In this document: positions 42,887-62,277 of the stretch, piece after piece
How positions within the stretch are numbered: the first letter of the stretch is position 1
How the letters are laid out: each line of letters starts with the position of its first letter
NCBI RefSeq assembly: GCF_002222615.2
Contig: NZ_CP022412.2
Coordinates: forward strand, 3,596,001 to 3,660,000
Length of the DNA stretch: 64,000 nucleotides
Direction: 5' to 3'
Origin: Bacteroides caccae
GTDB taxonomy: Bacteria; Bacteroidota; Bacteroidia; Bacteroidales; Bacteroidaceae
Notes under the pieces: model-generated
What the model saw: only the letters and a program-made list of their open reading frames with translations
Databases searched by the model: none
What the model was told of the DNA's origin: nothing
Position numbers and translations under genes: made by a program

Positions 42887-42921
42887 AATAATTTAATTAG
42901 AAAATTTAAATACAATACCGT

Positions 42922-43674: not shown

Positions 43675-43675
43675 A

Positions 43676-44548: not shown

Positions 44549-44559
44549 CTTTCTAAATA

Positions 44560-45669: not shown

Positions 45670-45671
45670 TT

Positions 45672-46706
45672 TTACCTAAATTGTATGTTTTCAACATTAA
45701 ATATTAACTGATATGGTATATAAAGTGACTTAAAAGCATTATTGGAACCAATATAAATCATTGCCAAGAAGTAACCAGAAAAGCAAATAGCATAAAACAA
45801 TCGATACTGAACTGAATACTTTCTCAATATAGAAGGGATCAAGAGACAAAAATAGACTAAAAAATACATTCCTAAACGGATCCCCAATGCTGGTCCTAAG
45901 ATAAAAGGGAACAATAATGCAATGCCAATTATAGCAAACAATTTATTCTCGTATTCATCAATCCTTTTTAAATAAGCTAATAATAACAAGGATACAAATA
46001 AAGCGATTTGAATATACCTGACTATCCCCCCACCAGTATACTCATCCAATTTATCTATATAATAAGAGTATATATCCAATACATAAAGAACTCTTAACAG
46101 TATTTCTTTTGCAAGAAACAATATTGGAATAATAAACACAAGCATACGTAAACTCAAAAAACGATAGACCGGATATATAAATAATGCAGCTAGTGCAGAT
46201 ACATGAAATAATGCCGCAAATCCAACAACCAGTACATACTTAAATAGAGATTGCTTCAAAATGTATTTAAATCCCCAAAATGATATACTAAGTGCTAATA
46301 TTTGACGAACAGAAGTAAAGGACTCTAAATAAAAAAAGGCTAGAAAAATTAATACCGAGAGCTGAAAATTTACAGAATATTTTTTAAATGAATGAAAAAA
46401 TATAAGATAAGTTGGTAATCCAAATAATACAAAAAGTAGAGGAGGATTATCAAATAAAATAGCTATAATACAGAAAATCTGACTCAAGGGTTCCAGTCTT
46501 ATAATCTGATTCACTTCTATTTTGTCAATATAATTATAGTAATTAATATAATCCCAGCCTACATCAAAACGAAATATCCCAATAAAAATAATGACAAATA
46601 ATCCTACCAATTCAAAGAAATAATATCTTCTACTACCATCTGGAAAAACTCTCGATAAAAAAAACAAAGAAAGAACTATACAAATAAATAAAATGTAAAA
46701 CAGCAT
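45672..46706 (-). CDS. EpsG-family (Wzy-like) polysaccharide polymerase
   Basis: 344 residues with about ten to eleven membrane helices and a conserved periplasmic loop opening with IFRFDVGWDYINYYNYI, typical of EpsG/Wzy proteins. It joins lipid-linked repeat units into long chains on the outer face of the inner membrane. This is the only polymerase candidate in the operon. Confidence 0.88.
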   Translation of the reverse strand: MLFYILFICIVLSLFFLSRVFPDGSRRYYFFELVGLFVIIFIGIFRFDVGWDYINYYNYIDKIEVNQIIRLEPLSQIFCIIAILFDNPPLLFVLFGLPTYLIFFHSFKKYSVNFQLSVLIFLAFFYLESFTSVRQILALSISFWGFKYILKQSLFKYVLVVGFAALFHVSALAALFIYPVYRFLSLRMLVFIIPILFLAKEILLRVLYVLDIYSYYIDKLDEYTGGGIVRYIQIALFVSLLLLAYLKRIDEYENKLFAIIGIALLFPFILGPALGIRLGMYFLVYFCLLIPSILRKYSVQYRLFYAICFSGYFLAMIYIGSNNAFKSLYIPYQLIFNVENIQFR

Positions 46707-46714
46707 TAATTATC

Positions 46715-47863
46715 TTATTTCAGTATTGAAACAATTTTACTACATGCCTTACCGTCTCCATATGGATTGACAGCTTTATGCATTTTATCATAATAATCGT
46801 CATTGTCTAATAGAAGTGACATTTCAGCAACTATTTTATCATAATCGGTTCCTACCAACTTCACAGTTCCAGCCTCCAATGCTTCTGGACGTTCTGTTGT
46901 ATCACGCATTACTAACACTGGTATCCCAAGTCCTGGTGCTTCTTCTTGTATTCCACCACTATCTGTCAATACAATTGCACTTTTCTCCATTAAATAAATG
47001 AACGAAAGATATTCTAAGGGTTCTATAAAAAACATATTTGATGTGGAATATTTATCAAACACCTTATGAATAGGTTCTCTTACATTTGGATTTAAATGCA
47101 TCGGATATACAAAATCAACATCAGGATATTTATCTGTTAACTTTTTAATCGCCATACAAACCTGCATAAACCCCTCTCCAAAATTTTCTCTGCGATGCCC
47201 TGTTATTAATACTAATTTTCTCTTGTTTTCCAATCGACTAATATCATATCCAGCCTGTTTCAAACTATCTGCTAATTGTGCATTTAAAGTTTTATTTTGC
47301 TTTATCATATCAACCACCATATAAAGAGCATCAATAACTGTATTACCAGTTATAACAATCCGTTCTTCTGGTATACCTTCACTCAATAAATTTGATTTAC
47401 TTAATAAAGTAGGAGCAAAATGATAAGTAGCAATACGTCCTGTAATTTGTCGATTCATTTCTTCCGGCCAAGGACTGTAAATATTATATGTTCGTAATCC
47501 AGCCTCAATATGTCCAACAGGTATTTGTTGATAAAAAGCAGCAAGAGCCGCAGATGTTGATGTCGTTGTGTCACCATGAACTAACACAATATCAGGATGA
47601 ACTTCTCTTAAAACATCACGCATTCCGAGCAAAACCCTAGTTGTAACATCATACAAATCCTGACCTTGTTTCATAATATTCAAATCATAATCAGGCTGAA
47701 TATTAAAAAGTTTCAGTACTTGATCTAACATCTCCCTATGCTGTCCTGTTACACAAACAAAAGTTTTTACTGTTTCTGAATATTTATGAAACTCTTTGAC
47801 TAATGGAGCCATCTTTATGGCTTCAGGCCTTGTGCCAAACACCAACATTACTTTCTTTATCAT
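46715..47863 (-). CDS. wecB: UDP-N-acetylglucosamine 2-epimerase (non-hydrolysing)
   Basis: 382 residues. FGTRPEAIKMAPLV at the start, GHIEAGLRTYNIYSPWPEEMNRQ near 128-150 and DSGGIQEEAPGLGIPVLVMRDTTERPE near 290 are the WecB signatures. It converts UDP-GlcNAc to UDP-ManNAc, so the repeat unit probably contains ManNAc or a derivative. No wecC-type dehydrogenase is encoded here. It overlaps the preceding gene by 1 nt. Confidence 0.96.
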   Translation of the reverse strand: MIKKVMLVFGTRPEAIKMAPLVKEFHKYSETVKTFVCVTGQHREMLDQVLKLFNIQPDYDLNIMKQGQDLYDVTTRVLLGMRDVLREVHPDIVLVHGDTTTSTSAALAAFYQQIPVGHIEAGLRTYNIYSPWPEEMNRQITGRIATYHFAPTLLSKSNLLSEGIPEERIVITGNTVIDALYMVVDMIKQNKTLNAQLADSLKQAGYDISRLENKRKLVLITGHRRENFGEGFMQVCMAIKKLTDKYPDVDFVYPMHLNPNVREPIHKVFDKYSTSNMFFIEPLEYLSFIYLMEKSAIVLTDSGGIQEEAPGLGIPVLVMRDTTERPEALEAGTVKLVGTDYDKIVAEMSLLLDNDDYYDKMHKAVNPYGDGKACSKIVSILK

Positions 47864-48888
47864 TATTGTAATATTTTTCTAATGTATAATCGTAATTCAT
47901 TAATTATTAAATAGAAGCGTAGGAAACTAATCAAAAAAAACACAGGAGATAATTCACAAATAGCTAAAACGATTTTATAAGGCCCAGGCATAAAGGATAT
48001 TGCAACAGAACTATTCAACTCATTCAAGTAGAAAAATAAAAGTTCATTTCTTTTTTTATGAGATAATTTCTTATCACTAAAAAGAGATAAAATAGCACGC
48101 AAAACATATACATTCTTTTCTACTTCAATAAACGTCATAAAATGTTTTTCTGCTATTTCATGTTTCTCGCAATTCTGAATACGTAAATTATAGGATAACC
48201 TAACATAGCGAATAAACATACTATGTGGAATGAAGGCAGAAGTTAAAGACTCTTGCTTTCTTTTCACATATAAATAACCAGAATTCTGTATAAAAGATAA
48301 TGTTTGTACATATAATAAAAACTGTAAAGAAAAAACATGGTCCTCTCCAAAAGAAAGGCTAGAATCAAATTGAATATGATGCTCAATTATAATTTGTCTT
48401 TTAAACAACCGTGCCCACGGTGAATTAAATATGTGTTTTTCTTCTGCAAATATGTAGACAGATTTCCATTCTCTGACAGATAATTGATCCATTCCGCTAA
48501 AGGATATGATATTTTGTACTTCTTTATCCTCATTAACAATTTTATAGCCTTGTAAATATAGATCAGCATTTTCTTCTCCAATCCAAAAAGAATTGAGAAA
48601 ATCCGGTTCTATTAAATCGTCTGAATCAACGAAACAAATATATTCTCCCTTCGCTTGATATATCCCTCTATTTCGAGCAACAGAGACACCTGAATTTTTT
48701 TGATGTAATACTTTTATTCGACTATCTTTTACAGCAAACGAATCACAAATTCTCCCACAAAAATCAGGGCTCCCATCATCAACTAAAATCAGTTCCCAAT
48801 CCGTAAATATCTGATTTATTATACTATTAATACAGTCTTCCAAAAAAGGTTCACTTTTATATACAGGAACTATAATTGACACTTTCAT
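47863..48888 (-). CDS. Family 2 glycosyltransferase
   Basis: 341 residues. The GT-A domain opens with VSIIVPVYKSEPFLEDCINSIINQ and has FVDSDDLIEPDF near 90-101. The C-terminal 100 residues contain amphipathic or membrane-associated helices. Overlaps the upstream gene by 4 nt (ATGA type). Cytosolic capsule assembly; donor unknown. Confidence 0.9.
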   Translation of the reverse strand: MKVSIIVPVYKSEPFLEDCINSIINQIFTDWELILVDDGSPDFCGRICDSFAVKDSRIKVLHQKNSGVSVARNRGIYQAKGEYICFVDSDDLIEPDFLNSFWIGEENADLYLQGYKIVNEDKEVQNIISFSGMDQLSVREWKSVYIFAEEKHIFNSPWARLFKRQIIIEHHIQFDSSLSFGEDHVFSLQFLLYVQTLSFIQNSGYLYVKRKQESLTSAFIPHSMFIRYVRLSYNLRIQNCEKHEIAEKHFMTFIEVEKNVYVLRAILSLFSDKKLSHKKRNELLFFYLNELNSSVAISFMPGPYKIVLAICELSPVFFLISFLRFYLIINELRLYIRKILQ

Positions 48889-49868
48889 TCTTTTATTTTT
48901 TTGAAAAAATAGAATAGCATTAATTTGAACACTTTAAAGGGCAAATTTGACAATAACAACTTTAGTCTTGTTATTATTGTAAGATCTTTCTCTAGTATAT
49001 AACATATTCCTAGCTGATTTTTAAGCCTCGTGTATGTCTCCTTATCTAAGTTCTGTTCAATAACTATTTTTTCAAGTAAAAACTTTGCATCAACCATATA
49101 TTTAACTAATAAAGGAAACTCATAAAACAGTCTTTTTTCCTTTATAAAATTTATTTTCAAAAAAAATATTTCACAATAACTATTAAAACTTTTTATTATA
49201 TTCTTAGGATCCGTCATTATTGAATTTTCTCGAACACGATAAAGGTACGTCCTTTGAAAACAGACTCTTAGATTATTACAATAATAGAAAAGATTAAAGG
49301 ACCATAACGAGTCTTCATGTATTATCCCCTCGCGAAACCACAAGTCATATTTTAAAAAAAAACTCTTTTTCACCAGTTTATTCCAAGCCATTTCATATAG
49401 ACTATACGAAATAAAGGCATTAAATATTTCTTTTTGCTTATCAAAGATAGCAACACTTGTATTTAATCTTGGTATATATTGATTATCTCCAATCAAATCA
49501 AAATCGCCCATTATAACATCAGGAAAACTCTGCAAAGAAAGGTTAGATAATAATTCAATGGTATTTTCTACTAAGATATCGTCAGAATCCAGAAAATATA
49601 AATAATCTCCTTTCGCAATTTTAACACCTGAATTTCTTGCAGCAGACAAGCCTTTATTTTCCTGATGATTTATTATTTTAAATAAAATATTTCCTTGATA
49701 AACAGATAAAAGACGATTGACAACCTCCATACTCTGATCAGGGGTACAATCATTTACTATAATACACTCTAAAGTTCCTTTATATGTCTGATTTATAACT
49801 GAATACAGACAACTTTCAATATATTGTTCTACATTGTAGACGGGTATTATTATAGAAACATTTACCAT
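48885..49868 (-). CDS. Family 2 glycosyltransferase
   Basis: 327 residues from the ATG at 49868 (MVNVSIIIPVYN); the upstream TTG at 49880 is in frame but overlaps the preceding gene. The GT-A motifs VSIIIPVYNVEQYIESCLYS and YFLDSDDILVENT are present. The C-terminus is basic and aromatic. It is very A/T-rich, like all the central capsule genes. Confidence 0.88.
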   Translation of the reverse strand: MVNVSIIIPVYNVEQYIESCLYSVINQTYKGTLECIIVNDCTPDQSMEVVNRLLSVYQGNILFKIINHQENKGLSAARNSGVKIAKGDYLYFLDSDDILVENTIELLSNLSLQSFPDVIMGDFDLIGDNQYIPRLNTSVAIFDKQKEIFNAFISYSLYEMAWNKLVKKSFFLKYDLWFREGIIHEDSLWSFNLFYYCNNLRVCFQRTYLYRVRENSIMTDPKNIIKSFNSYCEIFFLKINFIKEKRLFYEFPLLVKYMVDAKFLLEKIVIEQNLDKETYTRLKNQLGICYILEKDLTIITRLKLLLSNLPFKVFKLMLFYFFKKIKE

Positions 49869-49872
49869 ATCA

Positions 49873-50811
49873 CTAATCAATAAAGTATATATTATCTAAA
49901 TCTTTCAACCATGTTTCATAGAAGAACCTATTTTTTCCATATGAATTATCGAAAAAAACAAAAGGCTTATTTAATAGAATAGCCAAAATGGCAACGTGTA
50001 ATCTTGTTGTATATATTTTATTATAACGACAAAGAAATCTTCCTCCTTTTTTTATTAAATATGTTTTCAAAAAAATAGAAGCAAAAGCATTTGCTAGCTT
50101 GTATTGTTGAAAATTAATCAACTTACCCAATATTTTAAATCGAATAGATATAAACTCCATAGTAGGCCAATCCCTTATATCTACCAGATGCTGATCCTCT
50201 ATAATATAACTTTCATAATTTTTCGCACAAAATTCAATATCATTTCTCTTTAAGTACAGAACCTTAGAAGTACTTTTTCCACTATATTGATTTAAAGTTT
50301 GTTGAGAAATACAGAATGCCATGTCAGGTAATAACAATAAATTATTTTTATAGAAATATGAGCCTAATATATCCCAAGACTTTGTATCTCGAACACAGAT
50401 AGTTAGATTAGAATGTTTTCCCATTAACTCTGCATCTCTCTCTAATATTTTTGTATCCTGATAATGAACACTTTGTGGTAATATAATAATCTTATTATCA
50501 GGATATAGTTCTACTATTTTTAATCTAAACTCTTGATGTACACGCCACAGATCTCCAAAATTCCCACCGCCTTGCAATAAAATTGTTGTATCCTTGGGTA
50601 ATGGCTTATAACTAAAAGTCTGATATGAACATTTTGAAATACATTGAGAAGACAGTTGTTTTAGAAAATTTTCAGTTCCCTCCCAAATCAAAATATCTCC
50701 GATATTAGTATAATAAGGTAAATCCCATAATACATAAGAATCCGATATCAAAGGAGTCAACGTATTAACTATCAAATCTCTCAAAAAAGCCACCTTTCCT
50801 GAAAAATTCAT
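49873..50811 (-). CDS. Polysaccharide pyruvyl transferase family protein
   Basis: 312 residues. NIGDILIWEGTENFL near 37-51, the GGGNFGDLW motif near 105 and TRLHVAILAILLNKPFVFFDNSYGKNRF near the C-terminus define the CsaB/WcaK-type pyruvyl transferase family. Members add pyruvate ketals from phosphoenolpyruvate to polysaccharide sugars. It overlaps the radical SAM gene by 4 nt, so the two are translationally coupled. Confidence 0.9.
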   Translation of the reverse strand: MNFSGKVAFLRDLIVNTLTPLISDSYVLWDLPYYTNIGDILIWEGTENFLKQLSSQCISKCSYQTFSYKPLPKDTTILLQGGGNFGDLWRVHQEFRLKIVELYPDNKIIILPQSVHYQDTKILERDAELMGKHSNLTICVRDTKSWDILGSYFYKNNLLLLPDMAFCISQQTLNQYSGKSTSKVLYLKRNDIEFCAKNYESYIIEDQHLVDIRDWPTMEFISIRFKILGKLINFQQYKLANAFASIFLKTYLIKKGGRFLCRYNKIYTTRLHVAILAILLNKPFVFFDNSYGKNRFFYETWLKDLDNIYFID

Positions 50812-51926
50812 TTTATTATATGCTTTAAAATTGCTTTTACTGAATTTCCAACTTTCTCTTTTATCTTTCTTTGAACTGCTAACTTATATATTCTTTTATT
50901 AATCACCTCTTTCTCCTGTTCTGTATATTCTTTATTAGATTCATACAATTTCGTACTCATGAAACTTTTCATTTCAGGTTTAAGCCATTCACTACCATCA
51001 TTACATATTCGATTTCTCAACTCAGCATAAGTTGGAGCATCCAATTCTGGAATATCTCCTAATACTATATATGAATGACCATTATAACAATGATATTCCA
51101 AACAATTATTACCGATAGGACAGAAGTTTATAGGCTTTTCGACATCTTCAAATATATTCTGATGAATCAAAGATTTGTAACATTGAGTCATTATTCCAGT
51201 TCCAAGATTTAGATAAAAAGACCAATCACCAGCATAGCAAAACTCTTTTCTTTTCACCTCAAAAATCTTCATCTTATAATCAAAAATAGCAGATTTAAAA
51301 TTACCCCAGATTTTATTATATTCCTCCTTGTCTAGACAAGTTAGAATTGGTAATTTTTCAGGATCTCTCTCATCTCTAGCAATCGTAACATGAGGTATTG
51401 CACCGACTTCTTCAAGTGATTTTTGATTCATCTCATCAATAAAAGGAATCAACTCGTCCGAAGGAGTTACTTCCAAAGTGAAAGAACACCCTACGTCTCT
51501 TATTTTTTTTATGTTAGAGAAAAAACGCTCTAACAAGTTCTTCTCTTTCAGTTCTAAATAATGGTATGAAAATTTAAAAAATAACCTCTTCAACAATTCT
51601 GGTGGAAAAGAAATAATTTCATCGAAACGTTTAGAAATAGTAGCATTAGTTACAACCATTACATAATGCCCTTCCTCTAGAATAGCGCGAACATATTCTA
51701 ATAATTCTTTTGAAATAAGTGTCTCACCAGCAGCACAGAAATTAATTAAACATGTTCCTCCTAACCTTTCTTTAGATAGAGCTTTTCTAACAGTCTCAGC
51801 AGAATATTTCAACTTAGGTACCTTATTAGCAAATAACCCATGTTGTACAATATAACAGTAATGACAACGTAAAGTACAGGTTGTTATGGGAACATAACAA
51901 TCAATATACCTCTTAATTTTATCCAT
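50808..51926 (-). CDS. Radical SAM protein with SPASM-like cysteines
   Basis: 372 residues. The cluster motif CTLRCHYC (Cys17, Cys21, Cys24) near the N-terminus coordinates a 4Fe-4S centre that splits S-adenosylmethionine. The second half has several more cysteines (FCYAG, QCYKS, FCPIGNNC, HCYNGH) spaced like a SPASM auxiliary-cluster domain. The reaction is unknown. Its overlap with the pyruvyltransferase gene suggests a modification of the capsule sugar or of a linked peptide or phosphate. Confidence 0.87.
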   Translation of the reverse strand: MDKIKRYIDCYVPITTCTLRCHYCYIVQHGLFANKVPKLKYSAETVRKALSKERLGGTCLINFCAAGETLISKELLEYVRAILEEGHYVMVVTNATISKRFDEIISFPPELLKRLFFKFSYHYLELKEKNLLERFFSNIKKIRDVGCSFTLEVTPSDELIPFIDEMNQKSLEEVGAIPHVTIARDERDPEKLPILTCLDKEEYNKIWGNFKSAIFDYKMKIFEVKRKEFCYAGDWSFYLNLGTGIMTQCYKSLIHQNIFEDVEKPINFCPIGNNCLEYHCYNGHSYIVLGDIPELDAPTYAELRNRICNDGSEWLKPEMKSFMSTKLYESNKEYTEQEKEVINKRIYKLAVQRKIKEKVGNSVKAILKHIIK

Positions 51927-51927
51927 A

Positions 51928-52757
51928 TTATTCTAGAAAACTAAATTTATAATTATTCTTAGCCAGCCATTTAATTGATTGTCTCAATTTTATTCTATTA
52001 AGAATATTTCTATGTCCATTCATTGCCCATTCATGAGAAAAAAGCGTAATCGTATCTTTATTTTGATAATTTAATAATTCCAAAGGAAAACATTCCATTC
52101 TTTCTATTCTTATATCTGTCTTATGATAGTATATACTCGTAGAGCATATAAGCTATCACTTTGCAAACGATTCAAATTATAACTTATCCTCCCTTCATCA
52201 TCCGCACCTAATAAATGATAAACCCTATATTTTTTAAGAATAGCAATCATATTATCGTCTGCAAAATAATAATGTAATCTCAAGCATGGGGCTAAAGAAG
52301 ATTTTCCAGCCCAATGTAAAATAGATTTTTTTACATTCAAAAAAGAACGTTCAAATTCTAACGACTGTTCTTTTTTATCAAAACGTGGTTCAATAGCATG
52401 ATATCCGAACTTCAACCATTCTGAATTTTCTATAAATTCATTTCTAAATTTATCAGGAACTTCTGTTATTACAAAATTATCCGCTTTTTCATACACATAA
52501 AGACTAAAGACTGCACCATAGACATCATGCAATTCTTTTAATGATTTTAAAAAAGGTTGTTGAAAAACAGAGGTATAACGCAAAGTATCTTTCAAGTCTT
52601 TTATACAAAGATAAACATCATCAAAACTTATTTGTACAATCTTATTTGGGGAATTTGAAGGTATAGGAACTGAAACATAAATATAAACAGAAAATATTAC
52701 TATTAATGCAACAATAATAGATATCAAACTAAATATAATTCTTTTACTAACTCTCAT
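51928..52757 (-). pseudogene. Polysaccharide deacetylase-like gene with a frameshift
   Basis: The ATG at 52757 opens an N-terminal membrane anchor (about 8-30), then a NodB-like deacetylase region with QISFDDV, FSLYVYE and KFGYHAIEPRF. This frame stops at 52110 after 215 codons. A second frame, open from about 52152, continues with coding-like sequence ending in the NNYKFSFLE-stop at 51928, 1 nt before the radical SAM start codon. One missing base (or two extra) between 52112 and 52152 would join them into about 276 residues. Without the repair there would be an unusual 183-nt hole in a tightly packed operon. Sequencing error is possible. Confidence 0.7.
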
Positions 52758-54283
52758 AAAATCATTTTTTTTAATTTTCCTATTAAAACAGATTTAATAT
52801 ACAACTTTTCATTATGATTTAGTCCTATAAACCAAGAACTAATAAGCATACTGAATGTACTGCAGATAGTAACACAAACTAAGCGTATTAATCCTTCACT
52901 CATCATATTGTGAATCCAATATGGTAATATACATGAGAGTATCCCCACAAGCATTGATACACCTAATACATTAATAAAAAAATGACTGATTGAAACTTTA
53001 ATTAAAAAATTGAGAATTATTATACGAATAAAAATTGATATTATTGATAGTAATATTGCAACCAAAAATGTAGAATAAGGCGGACAGCCTAATTTCAAAA
53101 ATAAATAAGAGATAGGAAGATTTAGCAACAATAACCCTCCTACCATAACCTGATATAATTTTATGTTTCCTGTAGCTTGTACAGTTGCACCAATTACATA
53201 TGTGAACGACTCAATAAGAGAATTAATAACAATCAAACGAATAAATAAAATTGTATACTCAGGAATTTGTCCTAACCATATCGCTAATATATATTCTGTT
53301 TCTAAGATAATTGGAATAGAAAATAATAACAATAGAAAAAATGAAAACTTTGCCCCTGTAAAGAAGAGTAGAAACATTCGATTATAGTCATTACATGCGT
53401 ATGATTTCACAATTTGTGGATTCATCGCTATAGTAAAGTTTTGAGTAAAACTATTAAGAGCTGTATTTACTTGATAAGTTATACCACGCGCAGCATTCAC
53501 AACAGGACCAAAAAAAATATTCAATGCCATATTTACTCCTTGATCTTTCAAAACATAAGCCATACTTCCCCATAAACTCCACCCAGAATAGCTAAGCATA
53601 CCTTTAAAAGTACTCTTATCATAAAAAAGACTAGGATTATATTCTCCAAATTTTCTCTTACAATAAATATGATAAACTAAAAATAAAAGAATAGTAGTTA
53701 CAAATAACAGAAAACCATACGCTATAAGTTTATCACTATTACAAGTATTGATAAAAAAAGCTATAAGTAATTTACTTGATGCATCTAAAATACCCATATA
53801 TGCATAAATTGTCATCTTCTCATGAGCTATTATTTCTGCATTTAATGGGACTTGCATAATTGTCACAACACAACTAAGAACAGAAAATTGATAAATTATA
53901 TTAGCAGCAAACAATCTTTCAACAGGTATAATCAGCTTATTATTCACAAACCATAGTCCTATTGTCTCCGCTAATATGAGAATAATCCCAGCTAGTATTA
54001 GATGTATAGTAAAAGCTGTACGAAAGTTTTTTTCTAATCCTATTCTATTTTCCCTCCCTAATTCATAAGTAATAAAACGAGAGGTCGCGGAACTTAATGC
54101 TCCATTAAAGAAAGAAAATAAAGTTATAACTCCAGCAACGACATTATAAATTCCATAATCCTCTATACCTAAAGCTTTTAAAACAATCCTAGAAGTATAT
54201 AAATATACAATCATAACGATGCTTAATCTAATATAAAGCATCATTGTATTCTTTGCTATAAGATTATTTTTAGAACTAGACAT
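52754..54283 (-). CDS. Wzx-type polysaccharide flippase
   Basis: 509 residues with about twelve to fourteen membrane helices, opening KNTMMLYIRLSIVMIVYLYTSRIVLKALG and GIYNVVAGVITLFSFFNGALSSATSRFITYE, the lipopolysaccharide/O-antigen flippase signature of the MOP superfamily. It moves lipid-linked repeats across the inner membrane. Overlaps the deacetylase-like gene by 4 nt. Confidence 0.92.
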   Translation of the reverse strand: MSSSKNNLIAKNTMMLYIRLSIVMIVYLYTSRIVLKALGIEDYGIYNVVAGVITLFSFFNGALSSATSRFITYELGRENRIGLEKNFRTAFTIHLILAGIILILAETIGLWFVNNKLIIPVERLFAANIIYQFSVLSCVVTIMQVPLNAEIIAHEKMTIYAYMGILDASSKLLIAFFINTCNSDKLIAYGFLLFVTTILLFLVYHIYCKRKFGEYNPSLFYDKSTFKGMLSYSGWSLWGSMAYVLKDQGVNMALNIFFGPVVNAARGITYQVNTALNSFTQNFTIAMNPQIVKSYACNDYNRMFLLFFTGAKFSFFLLLLFSIPIILETEYILAIWLGQIPEYTILFIRLIVINSLIESFTYVIGATVQATGNIKLYQVMVGGLLLLNLPISYLFLKLGCPPYSTFLVAILLSIISIFIRIIILNFLIKVSISHFFINVLGVSMLVGILSCILPYWIHNMMSEGLIRLVCVTICSTFSMLISSWFIGLNHNEKLYIKSVLIGKLKKMIL

Positions 54284-54300
54284 TAAGTTTATGAAACGAT

Positions 54301-55443
54301 TTATTTCTTTGTGCGTTTTATTCTCAATCTATTCCATATTTCTTTTCCTAGTAGTTCCCAACTAATTACACAAAACACGGATAGAAAAACAAATAGCAAT
54401 ATACATATCTTCATTCCAATACTAGAAGCTTCCAAAGGAATTACTGCCGGTTCAACAACTGCAAATACAGGTTTTTCTTCCTGCACTTTTGCTCTAGCTA
54501 CTTGCAACTGATTAGCCACTTGACTATATACTTGATAAGCCAGACTCATATCATTTTGTAATCTTTCCTGTTCAGTACGTACACTTTGAAGAATCAGATT
54601 ATTATGAGTATCCATATAGCTAGCATATTTCTTTTGTGCAATATAATATTCTAACCGACGTTCTTTGAATAATCTTTCCAAATAAGCACAGTCTTCTTTA
54701 GCTTTAGAAGTACGATAATTAATAATATATTCTTGTAATTTATGAATTACAGAATCAGCAACAATCGCAGCAATCTCCGGATCTTGTAAAGTTACAGAGA
54801 TACTAGTAATAGCAGTTTTATTATTCACTGATGCAGTTATTGCTTTTCTTAATGAACTTATTTTATCTGTTTCTTCTCTTGTCAATTCAATAGTTGTTTT
54901 TTTTATTTCTCCGATAGTAATAATATTATTTTCATTTGTGAATAAAGCCTTCACACCACTAATAATAATACCTGGCATAGTAATCACATAATTCCACCAA
55001 GGAGAAGATTGTTCACCCAAATAGGCTTCCAAAGTATTATTCGATTCCGCAGAAGATATACCAATTTTCATCCGCAAAAGCTCTAATAAAAAAGGAGTAG
55101 AAGCTACAATATCAGATGAAAGAGAGGCATTTAAAGCATCCAAATTCTCCCCCAAACTAGCTCCACTTCCCAAAAAAGAAGCCGCAAGTCCTGCTAAGCC
55201 ATTTCCACCTTTAGAGCTACCCATTTCAGGAGATAATGTAACTTTTACCGTATATTGTTTTGGAATACTCAATGCTACAATAATACCAACAAGCATCCCT
55301 ATTCCCACAGCCTTATATATCGTTTTACGAATGTCAATTATATTGCGGAAAATATCAATTAAACCAACTTCCATTCCATTTCGATGTTTCTCACTCTCTC
55401 CCAATGATGAGTTCCCATTACTAACATACTGATTTTCAATCAT
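54301..55443 (-). CDS. Wzz-type chain length determinant protein
   Basis: 380 residues from the ATG at 55443 (a TTG at 55452 is also in frame). A membrane helix lies near 47-65, followed by the Wzz domain, a coiled-coil region (about 235-310) and a second membrane helix near 345-365 with the preceding FAVVEPAVIPLEASSIG. It controls capsule chain length in complex with Wzy and Wza. No cytosolic tyrosine kinase domain is fused. Confidence 0.93.
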   Translation of the reverse strand: MIENQYVSNGNSSLGESEKHRNGMEVGLIDIFRNIIDIRKTIYKAVGIGMLVGIIVALSIPKQYTVKVTLSPEMGSSKGGNGLAGLAASFLGSGASLGENLDALNASLSSDIVASTPFLLELLRMKIGISSAESNNTLEAYLGEQSSPWWNYVITMPGIIISGVKALFTNENNIITIGEIKKTTIELTREETDKISSLRKAITASVNNKTAITSISVTLQDPEIAAIVADSVIHKLQEYIINYRTSKAKEDCAYLERLFKERRLEYYIAQKKYASYMDTHNNLILQSVRTEQERLQNDMSLAYQVYSQVANQLQVARAKVQEEKPVFAVVEPAVIPLEASSIGMKICILLFVFLSVFCVISWELLGKEIWNRLRIKRTKK

Positions 55444-55456
55444 AAGAATCAAGAAT

Positions 55457-57865
55457 TCATTTTTTTATTAAATTAGCAATAGAGGCAACCATCATTCCCA
55501 AAGTACTGAATGTAGTAGCATAACTCAAAATGTTTCCGATATTAGTTTTCTTCTTAGCCTTACTAGGAATAATTATCTCACAACCGGGTTCAACTTGTTT
55601 CTTGCCACTACCCTTCACCTTAGTCACCTGACCATTCATATAAACAATGAACTTCTTACTCTTCTTCGCATTCTCTGAATAACCTCCCGCTTGATTTAGA
55701 TAATAGTCTACATCCTTGCCTTTCATATAAGAAACAGTATTCGGAACCATGACGGCACCATTGATTGTTACCGTATTGTTATTATTGGGAATAGAGACTA
55801 CATCACCCTCACGCAACACAATATCTGCCGTACTTCCGGGATTGGCCAACGCCTTCTCCAAATCGATACCGACCGTAAACGTATCCTCCACACGGACACC
55901 CAGGGAATCAAGCATAGCCTCACCCAACTGACGGCTCATCAAACGGATTACATCACCCATACGTTTCTTCTCACTCGCATTGGCTACACGGGTAAGCTTT
56001 GCACCACGAAGATAAGCGTAGTTGGTGGCTCCGCCGGCTTTGTTGATCAAGTCTGAAAGACGTTCCTCCCTGCTGGTCATCGCATAGGAACCGCCGAAAA
56101 GTATTTCTCCTTCGACTGAAACATTTTGTTGAGGTTGATAACCGGGACTGCGACGAACATAAACCTCATCGTAGGGCTGAAGGACAAAGCCGGGACGACC
56201 GTCAACTACAAAACCGTCCTTTAAGGCAAACGTATACATCTGACCGATAGTATCATTATCAACTGTACTATACGGGTTCTTTATTCTGCGGGATACATCA
56301 ACACGGACTACGGAAGCGGCTTCACGCAGGCCGCCTGCCTGGATGATCAAGTCCTCAAGGGTCATGTTATCCGCATAAGGATACGAGTCAGGCTGAGCCA
56401 CTTCACCGTGGATGACCACATTACCCCTGTCCTCCAGGTCATGAATACTGGGAATATAAAGAATGTCATTCTTCATCAGGGGAAGATTGGGGGAAGTACC
56501 CTCCATGATAGACTTGATATCCAAAGGGATTACTTCGGAAGTCAGGTCCTCACGCTGACGGTAAAGGACAGCACGGTTCAGGAACGCATCACCGGTAAGG
56601 CCCTGGGATTCGTTGACCAGTTCGCGGACGGTATTCAGCCTGCCGTTCAGTTCGTAGATACCGGGACGGTAGACCGCACCGCGGATTTCAAGCTTGTTGA
56701 TGAAGCGGTTAAGGATAGCTTCGGCCGTCACAACATCGCCGTTGCGCATCTTATAGACACTGTAATCCATGTCCTTGACCGTGTTGACTTCATATTCCTG
56801 ACCGTTCTGGCGGACCACACGCAAAGAACGGGTGTAGGCGTCGGCTTCAAAGCCGCCGGCATAGCTGATAAGCGTGGAAAGGTTCTCGTCCTTCTTCATC
56901 TCAAAACGCATCGGACGTTTCACCTTGCCGTCGATCTTGACCAGTACCTCATAAGCGGGAACTATCACAACGTCACCTTCCTGAAGACGGATATCGTCCT
57001 GAATGTTACCTTTCATGATAAACTGGTAGACGTCGATTGTAGCGATGTTCCTGCCGTTACGGACCAGTTGGACATTGCGCAGGCTGCCGATGTCACTCAC
57101 ACCTCCCGCACGGTAAAGCGCGTGAAAGACAGTGGCAAAGGAGGAAAGGGAGTAGGTGCCCGGCTGGACCACTTCACCCATGACATTGATCTGGATAGTA
57201 CGGATGCTGCCGAGTGTCAGACGGATGTCAGAGGTCGGGTCGTTCGTATTATTAAGACCGTTATAGATCTTGTTTAATGTTTTTTTGAGATAGTCGTTCG
57301 CTTCAGCGATCGTAAGTCCGTTCAGGTTGACGGGGCCTATCTTCTGGATATTGATAGTGCCGTCGGGAGAGATCTGCTGGCGGATAGTATTCTGGCTCGC
57401 CCCCCAGATATCGATTATCACTTCGTCACCGGGACCAAGGTGGTAATTCAAGGGGGTGGCGATATTGACACTGGGTTCGAAGGTCAGATTACGGGTGTTG
57501 AAGATGTTACGTCCGAAGACCTGATTACCGCGTGCGAGGTCTTGGGTACTAGGGTGGTCCTCCAACATATCCGAGGTGTTCTCCTTCATCTCTTCACGAA
57601 GGCGGGATTCGTTGATATCCGTACCCGTGGCATTGGAAGCGTTCACGTTGTTCTGCTGCTCATAGAGCTGCTTCACACGCAGGGCCTGCTCCTTGGTTAC
57701 ACCCTTGCGGGCCAGTTCGGAGGCCAGCTGCTTTTGTTCCTTACCCTGACGGATACCGTCCTTCACATATTCAAGTACCTGGGAATCGCTCATACTCTGA
57801 GCGAAAAGAGGAGATGATCCCGACAGAAGGATCAATAACAAAACACTAAACTTTCGAAGTATCAT
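55457..57865 (-). CDS. Wza-like capsule export protein with SLBB repeats
   Basis: 802 residues with a signal peptide (AQSMSDS near 23), a Poly_export domain (NYHLGPGDEVIIDIWGASQ near 140), and several SLBB beta-grasp repeats (GEVVQPGTYSLSSF, GKVKRPMRF, GAVYRPGIYEL, GEVAQPDSYPY, GEILFGGSY, GAVMVPNTV). It forms the outer-membrane channel for capsule. The 5' two-thirds are G/C-rich, while the 3' end shifts to the A/T-rich composition of the downstream genes. The gene overlaps upxY by 20 nt. Confidence 0.93.
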   Translation of the reverse strand: MILRKFSVLLLILLSGSSPLFAQSMSDSQVLEYVKDGIRQGKEQKQLASELARKGVTKEQALRVKQLYEQQNNVNASNATGTDINESRLREEMKENTSDMLEDHPSTQDLARGNQVFGRNIFNTRNLTFEPSVNIATPLNYHLGPGDEVIIDIWGASQNTIRQQISPDGTINIQKIGPVNLNGLTIAEANDYLKKTLNKIYNGLNNTNDPTSDIRLTLGSIRTIQINVMGEVVQPGTYSLSSFATVFHALYRAGGVSDIGSLRNVQLVRNGRNIATIDVYQFIMKGNIQDDIRLQEGDVVIVPAYEVLVKIDGKVKRPMRFEMKKDENLSTLISYAGGFEADAYTRSLRVVRQNGQEYEVNTVKDMDYSVYKMRNGDVVTAEAILNRFINKLEIRGAVYRPGIYELNGRLNTVRELVNESQGLTGDAFLNRAVLYRQREDLTSEVIPLDIKSIMEGTSPNLPLMKNDILYIPSIHDLEDRGNVVIHGEVAQPDSYPYADNMTLEDLIIQAGGLREAASVVRVDVSRRIKNPYSTVDNDTIGQMYTFALKDGFVVDGRPGFVLQPYDEVYVRRSPGYQPQQNVSVEGEILFGGSYAMTSREERLSDLINKAGGATNYAYLRGAKLTRVANASEKKRMGDVIRLMSRQLGEAMLDSLGVRVEDTFTVGIDLEKALANPGSTADIVLREGDVVSIPNNNNTVTINGAVMVPNTVSYMKGKDVDYYLNQAGGYSENAKKSKKFIVYMNGQVTKVKGSGKKQVEPGCEIIIPSKAKKKTNIGNILSYATTFSTLGMMVASIANLIKK

Positions 57866-58439
57866 TGATTAAGTGAATAGGTTCTACATAACCGATCGGC
57901 ATATCGACACAGGCACAGCCGAGCATATTCAAACGGACGGCAATCTTACTCCGGCCACCGACAGTCACCAGTTCGCCGACAAGGCCGCTCAAAGGACCTT
58001 TTATGACACGCACCTTCTCACCACGGGCCAAAGGAGAGTCATTCATACAGACGGCTTCATCAGAATAATCGAGCATGAAACGGAAACGGGCCATTTGCTC
58101 GTCGGGAATTACGGCAGGAGTACTTTCACCACGCATCACCATATAACGGCTGACAGTGGAAAAGGAAAGAACTTCCATACGCTCCTTGGGAGTCACATGA
58201 ACGAACACCATCATAGGAAGTAAGACGGTATCCACCAGCTTACGGCGGTCGCTCCATTGATGAATCTGTTGCTGAACGGGAACAAAAGAATCAATTCCCA
58301 TTTTGGATAAACGTTCGGATACCTTCTTCTCGTGATGCATACGAACGAGAGCGACATACCAACGTTTTGAGTGTGCTACGCCTTCCCCTGTCCCACAACT
58401 AGGCCCGGCATTTGCTGATTTCTTTTCTTGAAAAATCAT
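57846..58439 (-). CDS. UpxY-family transcription antiterminator
   Basis: 197 residues. A NusG N-terminal domain (WYVALVRMHHEKKVSERLSKMGIDSFVPVQQ near 27-58) and a C-terminal KOW-like part (RGEKVRVIKGPLSGLVGELV) define the UpxY branch of NusG paralogs. UpxY proteins, each the first gene of a capsule operon, let RNA polymerase read through the long operon leader. The usual partner, UpxZ, should follow but is absent; wza is next. The promoter lies in an invertible segment just upstream. Confidence 0.95.
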   Translation of the reverse strand: MIFQEKKSANAGPSCGTGEGVAHSKRWYVALVRMHHEKKVSERLSKMGIDSFVPVQQQIHQWSDRRKLVDTVLLPMMVFVHVTPKERMEVLSFSTVSRYMVMRGESTPAVIPDEQMARFRFMLDYSDEAVCMNDSPLARGEKVRVIKGPLSGLVGELVTVGGRSKIAVRLNMLGCACVDMPIGYVEPIHLINDTSKV

Positions 58440-58460
58440 ATTTTTTTACCCCATGTTTAT

Positions 58461-58482
58461 CTGTTACTTCTTAAGTAACGGA
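58461..58482 (+). repeat. Left inverted repeat of the invertible promoter
   Basis: Contains GTTAC-N7-GTAAC (itself an imperfect dyad) and is the exact reverse complement of 58732-58753 over 22 bp, apart from the orientation-defining base. The GTTAC-N7-GTAAC core is the motif reported for phase-variable capsule promoters in Bacteroides. Confidence 0.93.
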
Positions 58483-58686
58483 TCATGCATTTGCAGACAG
58501 CAGCTAACAACAAAAAAAGGAAAATGAACCGCGATGAGGGTGGGACGATATGGAAACCTAATATTCGATATGAAAGTATTCCGAAATTAGGTAATAAAAG
58601 GTCATAGAGCATGAAAGCAAAATCTTCATGTTCAGATACTTTTTTATTATGTATTTAAGAGAAAAAGGAAAAAAAGAAGTTTTTAC

Positions 58687-58718
58687 TTGTATGCTATTAG
58701 TATTTTTACCTATCTTTG
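58687..58718 (+). promoter_or_regulatory. Capsule promoter, currently facing away from upxY
   Basis: TTG (58687-58689), 21 nt, TATCTTTG (58711-58718): a strong Bacteroides promoter on the + strand, ending just before the right inverted repeat. In this state it would transcribe toward the 3' end of the recombinase gene, in antisense. Confidence 0.8.
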
Positions 58719-58731
58719 CACCGAATAAATT

Positions 58732-58753
58732 TCCGTTACTTAAGAAGTAACAG
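58732..58753 (-). repeat. Right inverted repeat of the invertible promoter
   Basis: Reverse complement of the left repeat (58461-58482), with the same GTTAC-N7-GTAAC core. Confidence 0.93.
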
Positions 58754-58795
58754 TAATACTAAGCCCCTAAATCTTAGCATTTTAAACCTTTTCCT

Positions 58796-59740
58796 TCAGG
58801 CTATTTTAAATCTTCTAACGTAATAATAATTTTGTTTATTTACTTTTGTGCGTTCTTCCAATTCGAAACCTTTCAAATAAATCTGAGTTGTCTTAATTGA
58901 TTTATGCCCTAGTGACTCACTGATCATCTCAATAGGAACACCCCTATATTTAGCAGTAGTAGCCCAGGAATGCCGTAAAGTATAAGATGTTACAGACGAA
59001 TGCAACCTCAGCTTACGGGATAAACTTTTCAGATGATTATTGAATTTCCGTAATGCAGACTGATACTCACGATACGCACCTTCTTCCCCCCTTTTATACT
59101 CTCCACTCAATATATGGAAAAGATAATCGGGACGGTCGGAACAAGATGAACTATGATTATTACGAAGCAAAGAAAGTAACTCATAAGCAGAATCTATAAT
59201 CTCCACACTCATGGGAGTACCGGTTTTCATACGGTTATACTTCAAGAGCCCCTGATTCAAATTTGACTTCTCCAGATGAGCCAGATCAACGAAAGGCATA
59301 CCACCAAACTGAAACAGTAAATTAGCAATGGCCTGCGTATGGCGAAGTGTCTCCGTCTGCGGATCTTTGTTAAGCAACGTATGAAGCTCACTCAAAGGAA
59401 GTGCTTTCTTCTGGCGGGTATCAACTCCGGTAAACACATCACGAAACAAGCCATGTACATACGGAGCCTGACGAGCATCCACTCCCCTATTATAGATACA
59501 ACGCAACATACGCATATACGTAGATATCGTATTTGGCTTTAAACGGGAGGCCGTCAGGTAATTGCTATACCTTTTTAAGTTTTCGCGGTTTATTTTGGTA
59601 AACTCAATAGACTGCGTACCACAAAACTGCGAGAAAGAACGGACCGCATTCTTATACACATGGGCCGTAGAATAACGGCCCTCCTTTCGCAAACAATCAA
59701 TATAGTTGCTTGCACAAGTAGAAAATCGATTTTTCTTCAT
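58796..59740 (-). CDS. Tyrosine recombinase next to the capsule promoter
   Basis: 314 residues. The N-terminal SAM-like DNA-binding domain (about 1-105) is followed by the catalytic domain: Lys172 (MKTGT), Arg256 (SYTLRHSW), His279 (SLGHKS) and Tyr287 (TTQIYL). The position of the first catalytic Arg, R in the RGMPFVD form of related integrases, appears to be Gly146 (QFGGMPFVD), and the His of HxLR is Tyr253. Recombinases in this place in Bacteroides capsule loci invert the local promoter, so this is the prime candidate inverter. It is not part of a prophage. Confidence 0.92.
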   Translation of the reverse strand: MKKNRFSTCASNYIDCLRKEGRYSTAHVYKNAVRSFSQFCGTQSIEFTKINRENLKRYSNYLTASRLKPNTISTYMRMLRCIYNRGVDARQAPYVHGLFRDVFTGVDTRQKKALPLSELHTLLNKDPQTETLRHTQAIANLLFQFGGMPFVDLAHLEKSNLNQGLLKYNRMKTGTPMSVEIIDSAYELLSLLRNNHSSSCSDRPDYLFHILSGEYKRGEEGAYREYQSALRKFNNHLKSLSRKLRLHSSVTSYTLRHSWATTAKYRGVPIEMISESLGHKSIKTTQIYLKGFELEERTKVNKQNYYYVRRFKIA

Positions 59741-59778
59741 AATTCATTTCATATTATATTAATGAGTGAAAATATCAC

Positions 59779-59859
59779 GGAATATACAAGATTTTCATTA
59801 AACCGAACATACTATTTATGGAATACTTACTGTTTTACATGAAAATCAGATATTCTTCC
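59779..59859. repeat. Imperfect inverted repeat upstream of the recombinase gene
   Basis: GATTTTCAT and ATGAAAATC (9-bp perfect) with flanking GAATAT/ATATTC, separated by about 40 nt, in the gap 59741-59986 that must hold the recombinase promoter. Possibly a regulator site or a second recombination site; weak evidence. Confidence 0.35.
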
Positions 59860-59920
59860 AGAAAATATGCAAATTGTAATCTCAATACCCCCTGCCTTAT
59901 TCAGTTATAATATCATAAAC

Positions 59921-59968
59921 AAAGAGAGGATAAACATTATTAAGTAAATGATTTATCCTCTCTCTTTA
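59921..59968. terminator. Terminator downstream of the GH89 gene
   Basis: AAAGAGAGGATAAA (59921-59934) pairs with the complementary TTTATCCTCTCTCTTT near 59952-59967, with one small bulge. It closes the GH89 transcript and separates it from the recombinase gene region. Confidence 0.7.
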
Positions 59969-59986
59969 TGTGTGGGTATATAGAAA

Positions 59987-62245
59987 TTATTCCCCTAGAT
60001 TCTCATACGTTTTACCGTCTTTGATTGCATCCGCTTTGAAGTCCTGGTAATATTCTTTGGCCAAAGCAGTATATTTCTTATACATCCGACCGGCAATTTC
60101 TATTTCATCCCCTTGTACAATTGGAGTACGTGCCTTATTGGGGGTAGATACAAATTGCAACTCCCAATCCCCCAGTTTACTATAAAAATCATTGGCACGG
60201 AAAGCCTCTCGTCCATGCGTCTGACGTAATCCCTCCTCCGAATAGGTTGTTCCATTATCGAGATGTTCCTGAAGCATGGCATAAAACTTCGTCCAACGCG
60301 GCAAATAATACCCTTTAATAAGTCCCGTCCATTCTCTCCATGAGTAGTCAAAAATAGAAGGATCTCCGTCTGCCCCCCAAATAGTGACTAAGGAAGTGGC
60401 ATCATATTCTAACAGGTTCTTTTCTTCTTCCGTATCCCCCCAACTTCGTGCAGATGTCAGCCAACGGTCAAAATTAAATTCAGGACGTGTACGAAGCAGC
60501 TCGTCCACATCTTCCAGCATTTGCAAGAAGCGTTTGCTATGCAAAGCGAAAGCCTCTTTGTCTCTATTCAGGAAAGCTTCGGCAGCTCTTTTATGGATAA
60601 CTTGTCCCATATTGGTCATCATTTGCCTTTGGACATCTATCACATCAAAACGATAAGGTTCAGAATTCTTCAGTTTATCGGCATCTTTGAGTAACAAACC
60701 TTCGGCCTGAATGACCAATAAAGGAGAATATGGAATTCCCAATCCTGCATTAGGCCCTGATTTTTTTACATTAAGAGCAGGACGTGCAGCAATGATAGAA
60801 CTTCGTTCGGTACCATTTGTACCGGGACGATAAGGTCCCTCCAATAAACAAATCATAGCTTGCTGAGCCGAGGGAGAGACAGCCCCATAACGTCGGTTGG
60901 CATATTGCTTAAGCCATTCCTCAATGGCTACTTCCCCTTTATGCAAAGGCATCTCAAATGCCAAATCATAATATACAGGATTCTGTTCAATAGCTTCCAT
61001 AAACAAACCGGAGCCACAAACATTGGGATACTGTTTTAAAGCCGTCATATATTGGTTGGAGGCCAGCAAACGCAAATCTCCATGCATATTAATACGCCCG
61101 CCGAAGTTATGCAAATTTCCTTCCACAGCCGGGTATCCCCAAAAGCCTTTGCGGCCCTTTATCTTTTCTCCATTTAAGTCCAGAATAATCAGGTCATTCT
61201 GAGGAACAGCCTTTACAATCGGTTCCCGCAAACTCCATGCCTGCATAGCCCATTTAGCTTTCGGGTCGAAATCTTTGATTAATTTATATATGGCATGCCC
61301 TACTGCGCTTAAATACTCCGGAGTATTGACAGGAGGTGCACTCTCGTGGAACGGATCTGCTGCGTATATTCCATACGTGCCATAAAGTTTCTTTTCTTCC
61401 TCTAAAAAATCACGGCCTAATGTTGCAAACAACGCATCGGTAGGATCAAGCTGTCCTGCTCCTTTAAATCCGCACCAACCGGGTTGCAGGCGAATTTTAG
61501 CTTCAGGATATTTATCTTTCAATTCACGAGGAACATAACCGGAGAATCCTTGTTGGATCGGTGTCATACCTAATTCCCTTTCACGGTCTATTATCTTTTT
61601 AGCTAAGATAATATGTTTATCGATCCAAGATTTAGGCAGCGGACCTCCATAACTTTGCAGATTTTGCATCCATTGCCAGGCAGCATGTCCCGGACCGGCT
61701 AAAAAACGACGAGCTTCTTCATCCGTAAACCGATGTTTCAATAACGTGTTATACCATACAGCTTCCAATCCTACTGTTGCCAAAGGCATATTGATAGAAT
61801 TCATAGCCATGAAATCTATTTCGCGTTGCCAACGTTCCCAATCCCAATAGGCAGCAGTATAGCTGACCGTACAATAATTCATGTATACCCTGTATTTACC
61901 ATTGATCGTATTACGGATAGTCTTTTGGGGAAGCGGAAGATTTTCAGGTAAGTTTAATTGATTACCCAACCATGAAACATGCGCGTTACACGTATATTTC
62001 AGATATTGGTTAAATGCAGTGGACAGGGCTATGGCATTATTCCCTTTCAAAAGGACTTTCCCTTTTTCTGATGAGATTTCATACACATCCTCTCCATTGG
62101 CGGGGTCGATCAATTGCAGTTTGATCTGTTTCCCATATCCGGGTGTGACTCGCTCTATTAAGGCATAAACAGCCTTAATGTGCGGGTCTTTGGCATAGCC
62201 TATTACAGTAAACAGGCACAATAATAACAACAAAGGTTTTTTCAT
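59987..62245 (-). CDS. GH89 alpha-N-acetylglucosaminidase
   Basis: 752 residues from the ATG at 62245, which starts the signal peptide (MKKPLLLLLCLFTVIGYA). It matches the NAGLU/GH89 family along its length: MNYCTVSYTAAYWDWERWQREIDFMAMNSINMPLA, PGWCGF, the acid/base candidate Glu301 (ADPFHE) and the nucleophile candidate Glu417 (GLFMEAIEQNP). GH89 enzymes remove terminal alpha-linked GlcNAc, as found in gastric mucin O-glycans and heparan sulfate. It is periplasmic or surface, monocistronic, with a -7 box at 62270-62277. Confidence 0.95.
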   Translation of the reverse strand: MKKPLLLLLCLFTVIGYAKDPHIKAVYALIERVTPGYGKQIKLQLIDPANGEDVYEISSEKGKVLLKGNNAIALSTAFNQYLKYTCNAHVSWLGNQLNLPENLPLPQKTIRNTINGKYRVYMNYCTVSYTAAYWDWERWQREIDFMAMNSINMPLATVGLEAVWYNTLLKHRFTDEEARRFLAGPGHAAWQWMQNLQSYGGPLPKSWIDKHIILAKKIIDRERELGMTPIQQGFSGYVPRELKDKYPEAKIRLQPGWCGFKGAGQLDPTDALFATLGRDFLEEEKKLYGTYGIYAADPFHESAPPVNTPEYLSAVGHAIYKLIKDFDPKAKWAMQAWSLREPIVKAVPQNDLIILDLNGEKIKGRKGFWGYPAVEGNLHNFGGRINMHGDLRLLASNQYMTALKQYPNVCGSGLFMEAIEQNPVYYDLAFEMPLHKGEVAIEEWLKQYANRRYGAVSPSAQQAMICLLEGPYRPGTNGTERSSIIAARPALNVKKSGPNAGLGIPYSPLLVIQAEGLLLKDADKLKNSEPYRFDVIDVQRQMMTNMGQVIHKRAAEAFLNRDKEAFALHSKRFLQMLEDVDELLRTRPEFNFDRWLTSARSWGDTEEEKNLLEYDATSLVTIWGADGDPSIFDYSWREWTGLIKGYYLPRWTKFYAMLQEHLDNGTTYSEEGLRQTHGREAFRANDFYSKLGDWELQFVSTPNKARTPIVQGDEIEIAGRMYKKYTALAKEYYQDFKADAIKDGKTYENLGE

Positions 62246-62269
62246 TTGACTATCAATTTTTATATAGCA

Positions 62270-62277
62270 CAAATATA
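62270..62277 (-). promoter_or_regulatory. Candidate promoter of the GH89 gene
   Basis: The minus strand reads TATATTTG, a TAnnTTTG box 24 nt upstream of the ATG. No -33 TTTG at the right distance. The rest of 62278-62467 shows no gene. Confidence 0.45.

Follow-up and report, generated by a model that had tools for sequence, protein, structure and literature searches.

The 64,000-nucleotide stretch of Bacteroides caccae DNA analyzed here (the window) very probably contains a phase-variable capsule switch, in which an invertible promoter lies between a capsule gene cluster headed by upxY and the gene of a tyrosine recombinase. A phase-variable promoter had been proposed in a preliminary description of the window. 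It is supported by the occurrence of both orientations at orthologous loci, by a fixed ON junction in the same genome and by the inversion reported for a near-identical repeat of B. xylanisolvens (PMC12118408). The additional claim that the switch had been caught in the OFF state stood with regard to the orientation, but there is nothing exceptional about it, since OFF is the norm in assembled loci (113 of 121).

Structure of the invertible region

The inverted repeats (Table 1) consist of arms of 22 nt each, which are 100% complementary and separated by 249 nt. The 17-bp core GTTAC-N7-GTAAC (GTTACNNNNNNNGTAAC) was found twice in the window, both times inside an arm, while 0.06 copies were expected and none of 100 shuffled sequences gave two. 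Thus, the previous assertion that such repeats bound the segment was confirmed by perfect arms and a motif far above chance. Core pairs at a spacing similar to that of the window exist nine times in the genome of the strain, and the reversed control of the pair did not yield a match in any of 148 genome rows. No match was obtained by an Rfam scan of positions 57500-60000 at gathering thresholds, nor were the leader and core detected in the viral contigs searched.

Table 1. Positions of the features belonging to the capsule switch in the window
Feature	Position	Strand	Remarks
Capsule (polysaccharide) genes downstream of upxY	42260-57865	-	Family matches
upxY, heading the cluster and encoding a transcription antiterminator of 197 aa	57846-58439	-	NF033644, 172.1 bits (cut-off 100)
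Leader element GGGGTAAAAAAAT-ATG	58437-58452	-	Outside the invertible DNA
Left (upxY-side) inverted repeat	58461-58482	.	Core 58463-58479, GTTACTTCTTAAGTAAC, presumed recombination site
Invertible segment, 249 bp	58483-58731	.	Flipped at orthologous loci
Promoter	58686-58718	+	-33-like CTTG (58686-58689), 21-nt spacer, -7 element TATCTTTG (58711-58718)
Right (recombinase-side) inverted repeat	58732-58753	.	Core 58735-58751
Tyrosine recombinase of 314 aa, directed at the segment and presumed to be the local invertase	58796-59740	-	PF00589, PF13102

Bacteroides-type promoters follow the consensus TTTG / TAnnTTTG. Scored against this consensus, the best candidate in the segment faces the recombinase gene, i.e. 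it is in the OFF orientation, and its -7 element resides 16 nt from the right core. A second, weaker candidate has the same direction, and no promoter facing upxY passed even a laxer rule in the segment. As described before, the sole consensus promoter is hence directed away from the capsule genes. A sigma-70 scan gave two matches versus 6.9 expected and was discarded, as such a scan is uninformative in Bacteroides.

We propose that the adjacent recombinase or a paralogue would recombine the two cores and thereby flip the segment. In the OFF orientation the promoter is directed at the recombinase gene, leaving the capsule genes without a promoter and probably nearly silent. In the flipped segment the -7 element would by arithmetic come to lie at 58496-58503, 57 nt before upxY (end of the -7 element to the start codon), in good agreement with the distance of about 50 nt predicted earlier, and the capsule genes would then be transcribed. 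UpxY, to judge from its family, probably assists RNA polymerase in traversing the 16-kb cluster. OFF is the usual majority state in assemblies, and ON cells would form a minority.

It had also been concluded that the assembled sequence represents cells not expressing the capsule. This is plausible insofar as the promoter is directed away from the capsule genes in the OFF orientation, but some expression may persist: on the sense path from the recombinase gene to the target, terminator-like sites were detected in only 5 of the 121 surveyed loci (by a simple perfect-stem rule, Rho-dependent termination being outside this rule), so that read-through from the recombinase gene could give some expression in the OFF state. 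A looser scan of the window gave one such site, located at the right repeat and on the strand of upxY, with 1.3 expected by chance.

Capsule genes and recombinase

The preliminary description referred to a 16-kb capsule operon. What we found is a gene cluster of 16.2 kb (42260-58439) on a single strand with a largest gap of 183 nt, which we infer to be one operon. Besides UpxY, it encodes an SLBB/Poly_export protein, weak Wzz-like and MatE-like matches, a protein without family, a radical SAM protein, a pyruvyl transferase, glycosyltransferases, a WecB-type epimerase, an EpsG-type protein, a GT11 protein and an initiating sugar transferase. The gene following upxY is that of the SLBB/Poly_export protein, not upxZ, and the UpxY/UpxZ pairing is thus missing at this locus. 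UpxZ as the second gene is often, not always, present in this family. A genome-wide search for UpxZ gave no match, but as the control genomes did not give any either, this result is uninformative. Downstream of the end of the cluster, an IS66-type transposase gene (39024-40637) is located.

The PF00589 match of the recombinase scored 53.6 bits (cut-off 27.1). Its LRH, LGH and tyrosine motifs align to solved Xer-type enzymes. The sequence GMPF was aligned to GLRV of a XerC-like protein, and the arginine of box I seems to be missing, apparently by replacement, which is a point against the proposed inversion. IntDOT-like enzymes are not known to have a box-I arginine either. Between the recombinase gene and a TPR gene, the window harbors a gene (59987-62272) for a NAGLU-type alpha-N-acetylglucosaminidase, which matched only loci of its own genome and none of the fetched loci of other genomes, many of which end too early to show whether it lies at a greater distance.

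Orientation of the promoter in related loci

For a comparison, 148 genomes of the genus drawn from a larger group were studied, 27 of which hold exact core pairs. The survey comprised stretches around pairs, loci returned by searches and loci found with the recombinase protein in named genomes; loci from the pair search are those among the matches listed, seven genomes being complete and some others represented by one locus only. Cores were paired at distances of 205-320 nt. Each of them was allowed one mismatch among its ten fixed bases, and the two cores of a pair could differ at no more than two positions. After removal of duplicates, 123 loci with a nearby recombinase match remained. L093 and L130, whose recombinase matches reach only 24-25% identity and are oriented away, were dropped for this reason, resulting in 121 loci. 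L079 and L085 (no recombinase match) as well as L025 and L026 from a set of 13 Bacteroides loci (no pair found by script) stayed outside the classification.

A locus was called ON if its promoter points away from the recombinase gene and OFF if it points toward it. In the 121 loci, which belong to approximately 30 genomes (assigned by hand), the promoter was OFF in 113 and ON in seven cases, and one case was unclear. The 59 clade A loci, to which the window belongs, comprised 53 OFF and six ON loci, and the 62 clade B loci 60 OFF, one ON and one unclear locus. L148 had been included because it was already shown to be flipped, L048 and L060 emerged only from the search with the window DNA, and the OFF assignment of L060 is based on a weak promoter match; without these three loci the ratios are 52:5 in clade A and 59:1:1 in clade B. 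As loci of related genomes are not independent, binomial values can serve only as a guide. The bias toward OFF in assembled loci is large. A mutual exclusion with at most one ON locus per genome was also considered, the six clade A ON loci being distributed among six genomes. Since 48% of random placements gave the same result, this test says nothing.

The segment occurs in both orientations at orthologous loci of related species. Comparison of L018 (ON, B. congonensis) with L127 (OFF) revealed 97% identity of the segments when one was inverted and 41% when they were aligned directly, with flanks of 93% and 98% identity. Similar values were obtained for L148 (ON) and L133 (OFF), namely 95% inverted versus 39% direct identity and flanks of 96% and 94%. 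To the segment of the window, the nearest flipped orthologue, L148, is only 73% identical in inverted form, which weakens the comparison for the window itself. At the chromosomal place of the window beside the TPR gene, four ON and seven OFF loci were counted in 11 genomes including the window, one of the OFF loci being partly masked and read by eye. By script, 4 of 10 loci at this place versus 2 of 49 other clade A loci were ON (Fisher p = 0.006, the comparison having been chosen post hoc).

In 120 of 121 pairs the two copies of the N7 spacer agree, and the spacers vary between loci, with the reservation that admission of a pair required no more than two differences in 17 positions and that the spacers of the dropped locus L093 are unlike. 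The contrast was strongest in clade B, where the identity at column 8 was 0.98 within pairs versus 0.47 between loci. Agreement within pairs together with variation between loci is expected if strand exchange needs identity at these positions. The two dropped loci contain clade B-like pairs (L093, 3635-3936; L130, 3529-3828), next to which, in place of the usual recombinase gene, frames of 403 and 436 aa read away. The two spacers of L093 differ and its promoter faces a 954-aa target, so this locus may be locked ON, and the promoter of L130 faces away from its target.

The start codon of upxY in the window (58439) lies 23 nt from the repeat core, a distance shared by most clade A loci. In each of the 45 clade A loci at which UpxY was detected, the leader has GGGGTAA before the start codon. 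The motif is also present in two clade A loci without detected UpxY (L094 and L109); within 90 nt it was found in none of the 62 clade B loci. In the predicted leader RNA, the recombination core forms a hairpin of -5.9 kcal/mol.

Further switches and a fixed ON copy in the B. caccae genome

The genome of the strain, in which the window occupies positions 3596001-3660000 of a 4,570,803-bp contig (G000:C1), harbors nine exact repeat pairs and a tenth that deviates at one base. All ten loci adjoin a tyrosine recombinase gene, five of clade A (64-100% identity to that of the window) and five of clade B (41-42%), and the promoter faces the recombinase gene (OFF) in each of them. A upxY gene was detected at three of the five clade A loci including the window, while the others lead to YjbH-like proteins and to DUF3575/DUF3868 proteins, respectively. 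Large proteins follow at the five clade B loci, and three of these proteins match DUF4988 above the cut-off; the -7 element in clade B is CATATTTG, one base off the consensus. At the non-promoter end of clade B segments (e.g., L006, L007 and L008) a hairpin is visible, whose letters vary and whose pairing, by eye, seems to be kept; it is possibly a structured element. A 23-nt perfect inverted repeat of the genome (1936310-1936332 / 1936692-1936714) coincides with an inverton listed in a study that includes B. caccae ATCC 43185 (B-ca-ATCC-43185__0:1936309-1936332-1936691-1936714; PMC11892184). Accordingly, the genome is that of B. caccae ATCC 43185 or an assembly sharing its coordinates.

The UpxY protein of the window is 98% identical to that encoded at G000:C1:3463455-3464045, approximately 190 kb apart. 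The N7 spacers of these two switches are TTCTTAA and TTTAAAG, respectively, a difference that could prevent recombination between the two.

A fourth upxY gene of the genome (188 aa, from 2963994) possesses a fixed-ON leader region (G000:C1:2963880-2964560; L188 3881-4561). Its ON junction at 2963931-2963990 is composed of a 21-nt promoter spacer, 16 nt, a decayed core ATTGC-N7-GCAAT and 22 nt with GGGGTAAAAAAAT, followed by ATG. The 21-nt and 16-nt spacings are identical to those predicted for the inverted window, and the distance from the core to the start codon is 22 versus 23 nt. Inverted repeats of at least 14 nt were not found around this gene, the best partner arm has mismatches at 8 of 17 positions, and no recombinase match was obtained in the 3-kb locus. 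An apparent stop inside the upxY match at 2963997 was rejected, as the frame of 188 aa is uninterrupted and the match continues beyond its end. When the 148 genomes were searched for this ON junction, 11 matches distributed over 10 genomes were obtained, namely the six clade A ON loci, the fixed copy described here, three similar fixed leaders and one chance match. The three similar leaders, which belong to three other genomes, have best partner arms with 5-7 mismatches and lack a recombinase match. With all ten switches OFF, the strain could still produce the capsule of the fixed-ON locus.

Alternatively, the window switch itself might be locked and decayed, with persisting repeats, a segment that no longer inverts and capsule genes permanently off. 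Its spacer TTCTTAA, which is private to the window among the 121 loci, would fit such a fate, but the two N7 copies are still identical despite this privacy, both arms are still perfect and the recombinase frame is open over its 314 aa. The truly locked locus of the same genome differs by its decayed core and by the loss of partner and recombinase gene. A locked window switch is therefore very improbable, and we prefer a switch that is still able to invert.

Possible causes of the OFF bias

A working switch could favor OFF by itself if the OFF-facing promoter read antisense into the recombinase gene. Less recombinase would then be made and OFF would be stabilized, while ON would lack this brake and flip back sooner. 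The layout of the loci is consistent with this idea. The recombinase gene reads toward the segment in 121 of 123 loci, the two exceptions with 24-25% identity being those dropped. Its stop codon is 22-49 nt away from the repeat core in the 59 clade A loci, and in clade B the gap amounts to 4-56 nt in 60 of 62 loci, the two others showing overlaps. Terminator-like sites on the antisense path were detected in only 8 of 121 loci by the simple perfect-stem rule. Given convergent genes, a short gap and rare terminators, transcripts started at the OFF promoter would enter the recombinase gene at its 3' end, and the 113 OFF loci would be in line with such a brake.

The OFF bias is, however, equally well explained if few capsules are made per cell at a time or if ON is costly. 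Moreover, published data on B. thetaiotaomicron argue against OFF as a universal state: CPS3 is reported to be more than 60% ON in some metagenomes (PMC10939037), and the group 126 inverton to give roughly equal reads for both orientations in isolate culture (PMC11892184). In mouse stool, the same inverton was described in one orientation (PMC11892184). The upxY promoter of P. vulgatus whose linked invertase is defective is reported as nearly all ON (PMC13114119); it likewise departs from such a rule and is neutral with regard to the brake. In B. intestinalis, which has another repeat, one CPS promoter is also given as mainly ON (PMC8375218). Among the papers listed by literature searches, none named antisense control of such recombinases in its title or opening abstract lines. 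We regard a bias arising in this way as unlikely, and it is rather doubtful that the OFF-orientation promoter restrains its recombinase gene by antisense transcription, as the gene arrangement would suggest.

Comparison with known systems

UpxY/tyrosine-recombinase invertons are already well described (PMC12118408, PMC11892184, PMC13114119; review PMC12632263), and the window locus is one more example. Its closest counterpart is CPS1 of B. xylanisolvens, for which a near-identical repeat (GTTACTTCTTAGGTAACGGA), an invertible region of 290 bp, high-confidence inversion and an integrase beside the CPS operon are reported (PMC12118408). The spacer there is TTCTTAG instead of TTCTTAA, and at the window inversion is predicted from sequence comparison. 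According to the same paper, CPS3, CPS4 and CPS5 of B. xylanisolvens have repeats beside upxY, and CPS1/3/5/6 of B. thetaiotaomicron are, like the window, accompanied by an integrase or tyrosine-type invertase. The inverton groups of the hCom2 community that have UpxY as target, e.g., group 126, share the geometry of the window, the arms in B. thetaiotaomicron comprising about 20 nt at a distance of about 248 nt; tyrosine-type invertases are enriched nearby, and UpxY genes are enriched as targets of four Bacteroidota groups (PMC11892184). Literature searches for B. caccae together with phase variation or invertons did not show this capsule locus described by itself, though the supplement of PMC11892184 may list the inverton.

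The large-capsule promoter of B. fragilis controlled by Tsr19 is also an invertible polysaccharide promoter with a tyrosine recombinase. Unlike in the window, the gene behind it is not upxY but encodes a WbaP-like glycosyltransferase (BF2782; PMC3090145). Patrick et al. described this promoter as OFF in three of three genome sequences, while PCR found both orientations (PMC3090145). The S-layer switch BT1927 of B. thetaiotaomicron resembles that of the window in being a phase-variable surface promoter, its target being an S-layer protein and not a capsule; for cells in vitro, an ON fraction of about 1 in 1,000 is reported (PMC12548429).

In the PSA-type capsules of B. fragilis an invertible promoter likewise precedes a UpxY operon, but there the inversion is attributed to the global serine invertase Mpi acting on another repeat, and upxZ is often the second gene (PMC12632263, PMC8375218). 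The location of a UpxY capsule promoter in an invertible segment might suggest that such an enzyme controls the window switch in trans. However, the Mpi repeats are given as ARACGTTCGTN (PMC8375218) and are unlike GTTAC-N7-GTAAC. Together with the tyrosine recombinase gene beside each of the ten own loci, this makes an Mpi-type control most improbable, and we favor inversion by the local tyrosine recombinase or a paralogue.

In gut Bacteroides, sensitivity to phages and interaction with the host are linked to the switching of capsules. Since assemblies nearly always show such switches OFF, a reference genome says little about the capsules that a strain makes. Beyond the locus itself, the OFF count, the fixed-ON capsule locus and a testable idea on the origin of the OFF bias are of use. 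The fixed-ON locus could serve as the default coat of the strain. If the antisense brake were true, the convergent layout would build the OFF bias without an extra regulator and explain why 113 of 121 loci are OFF.
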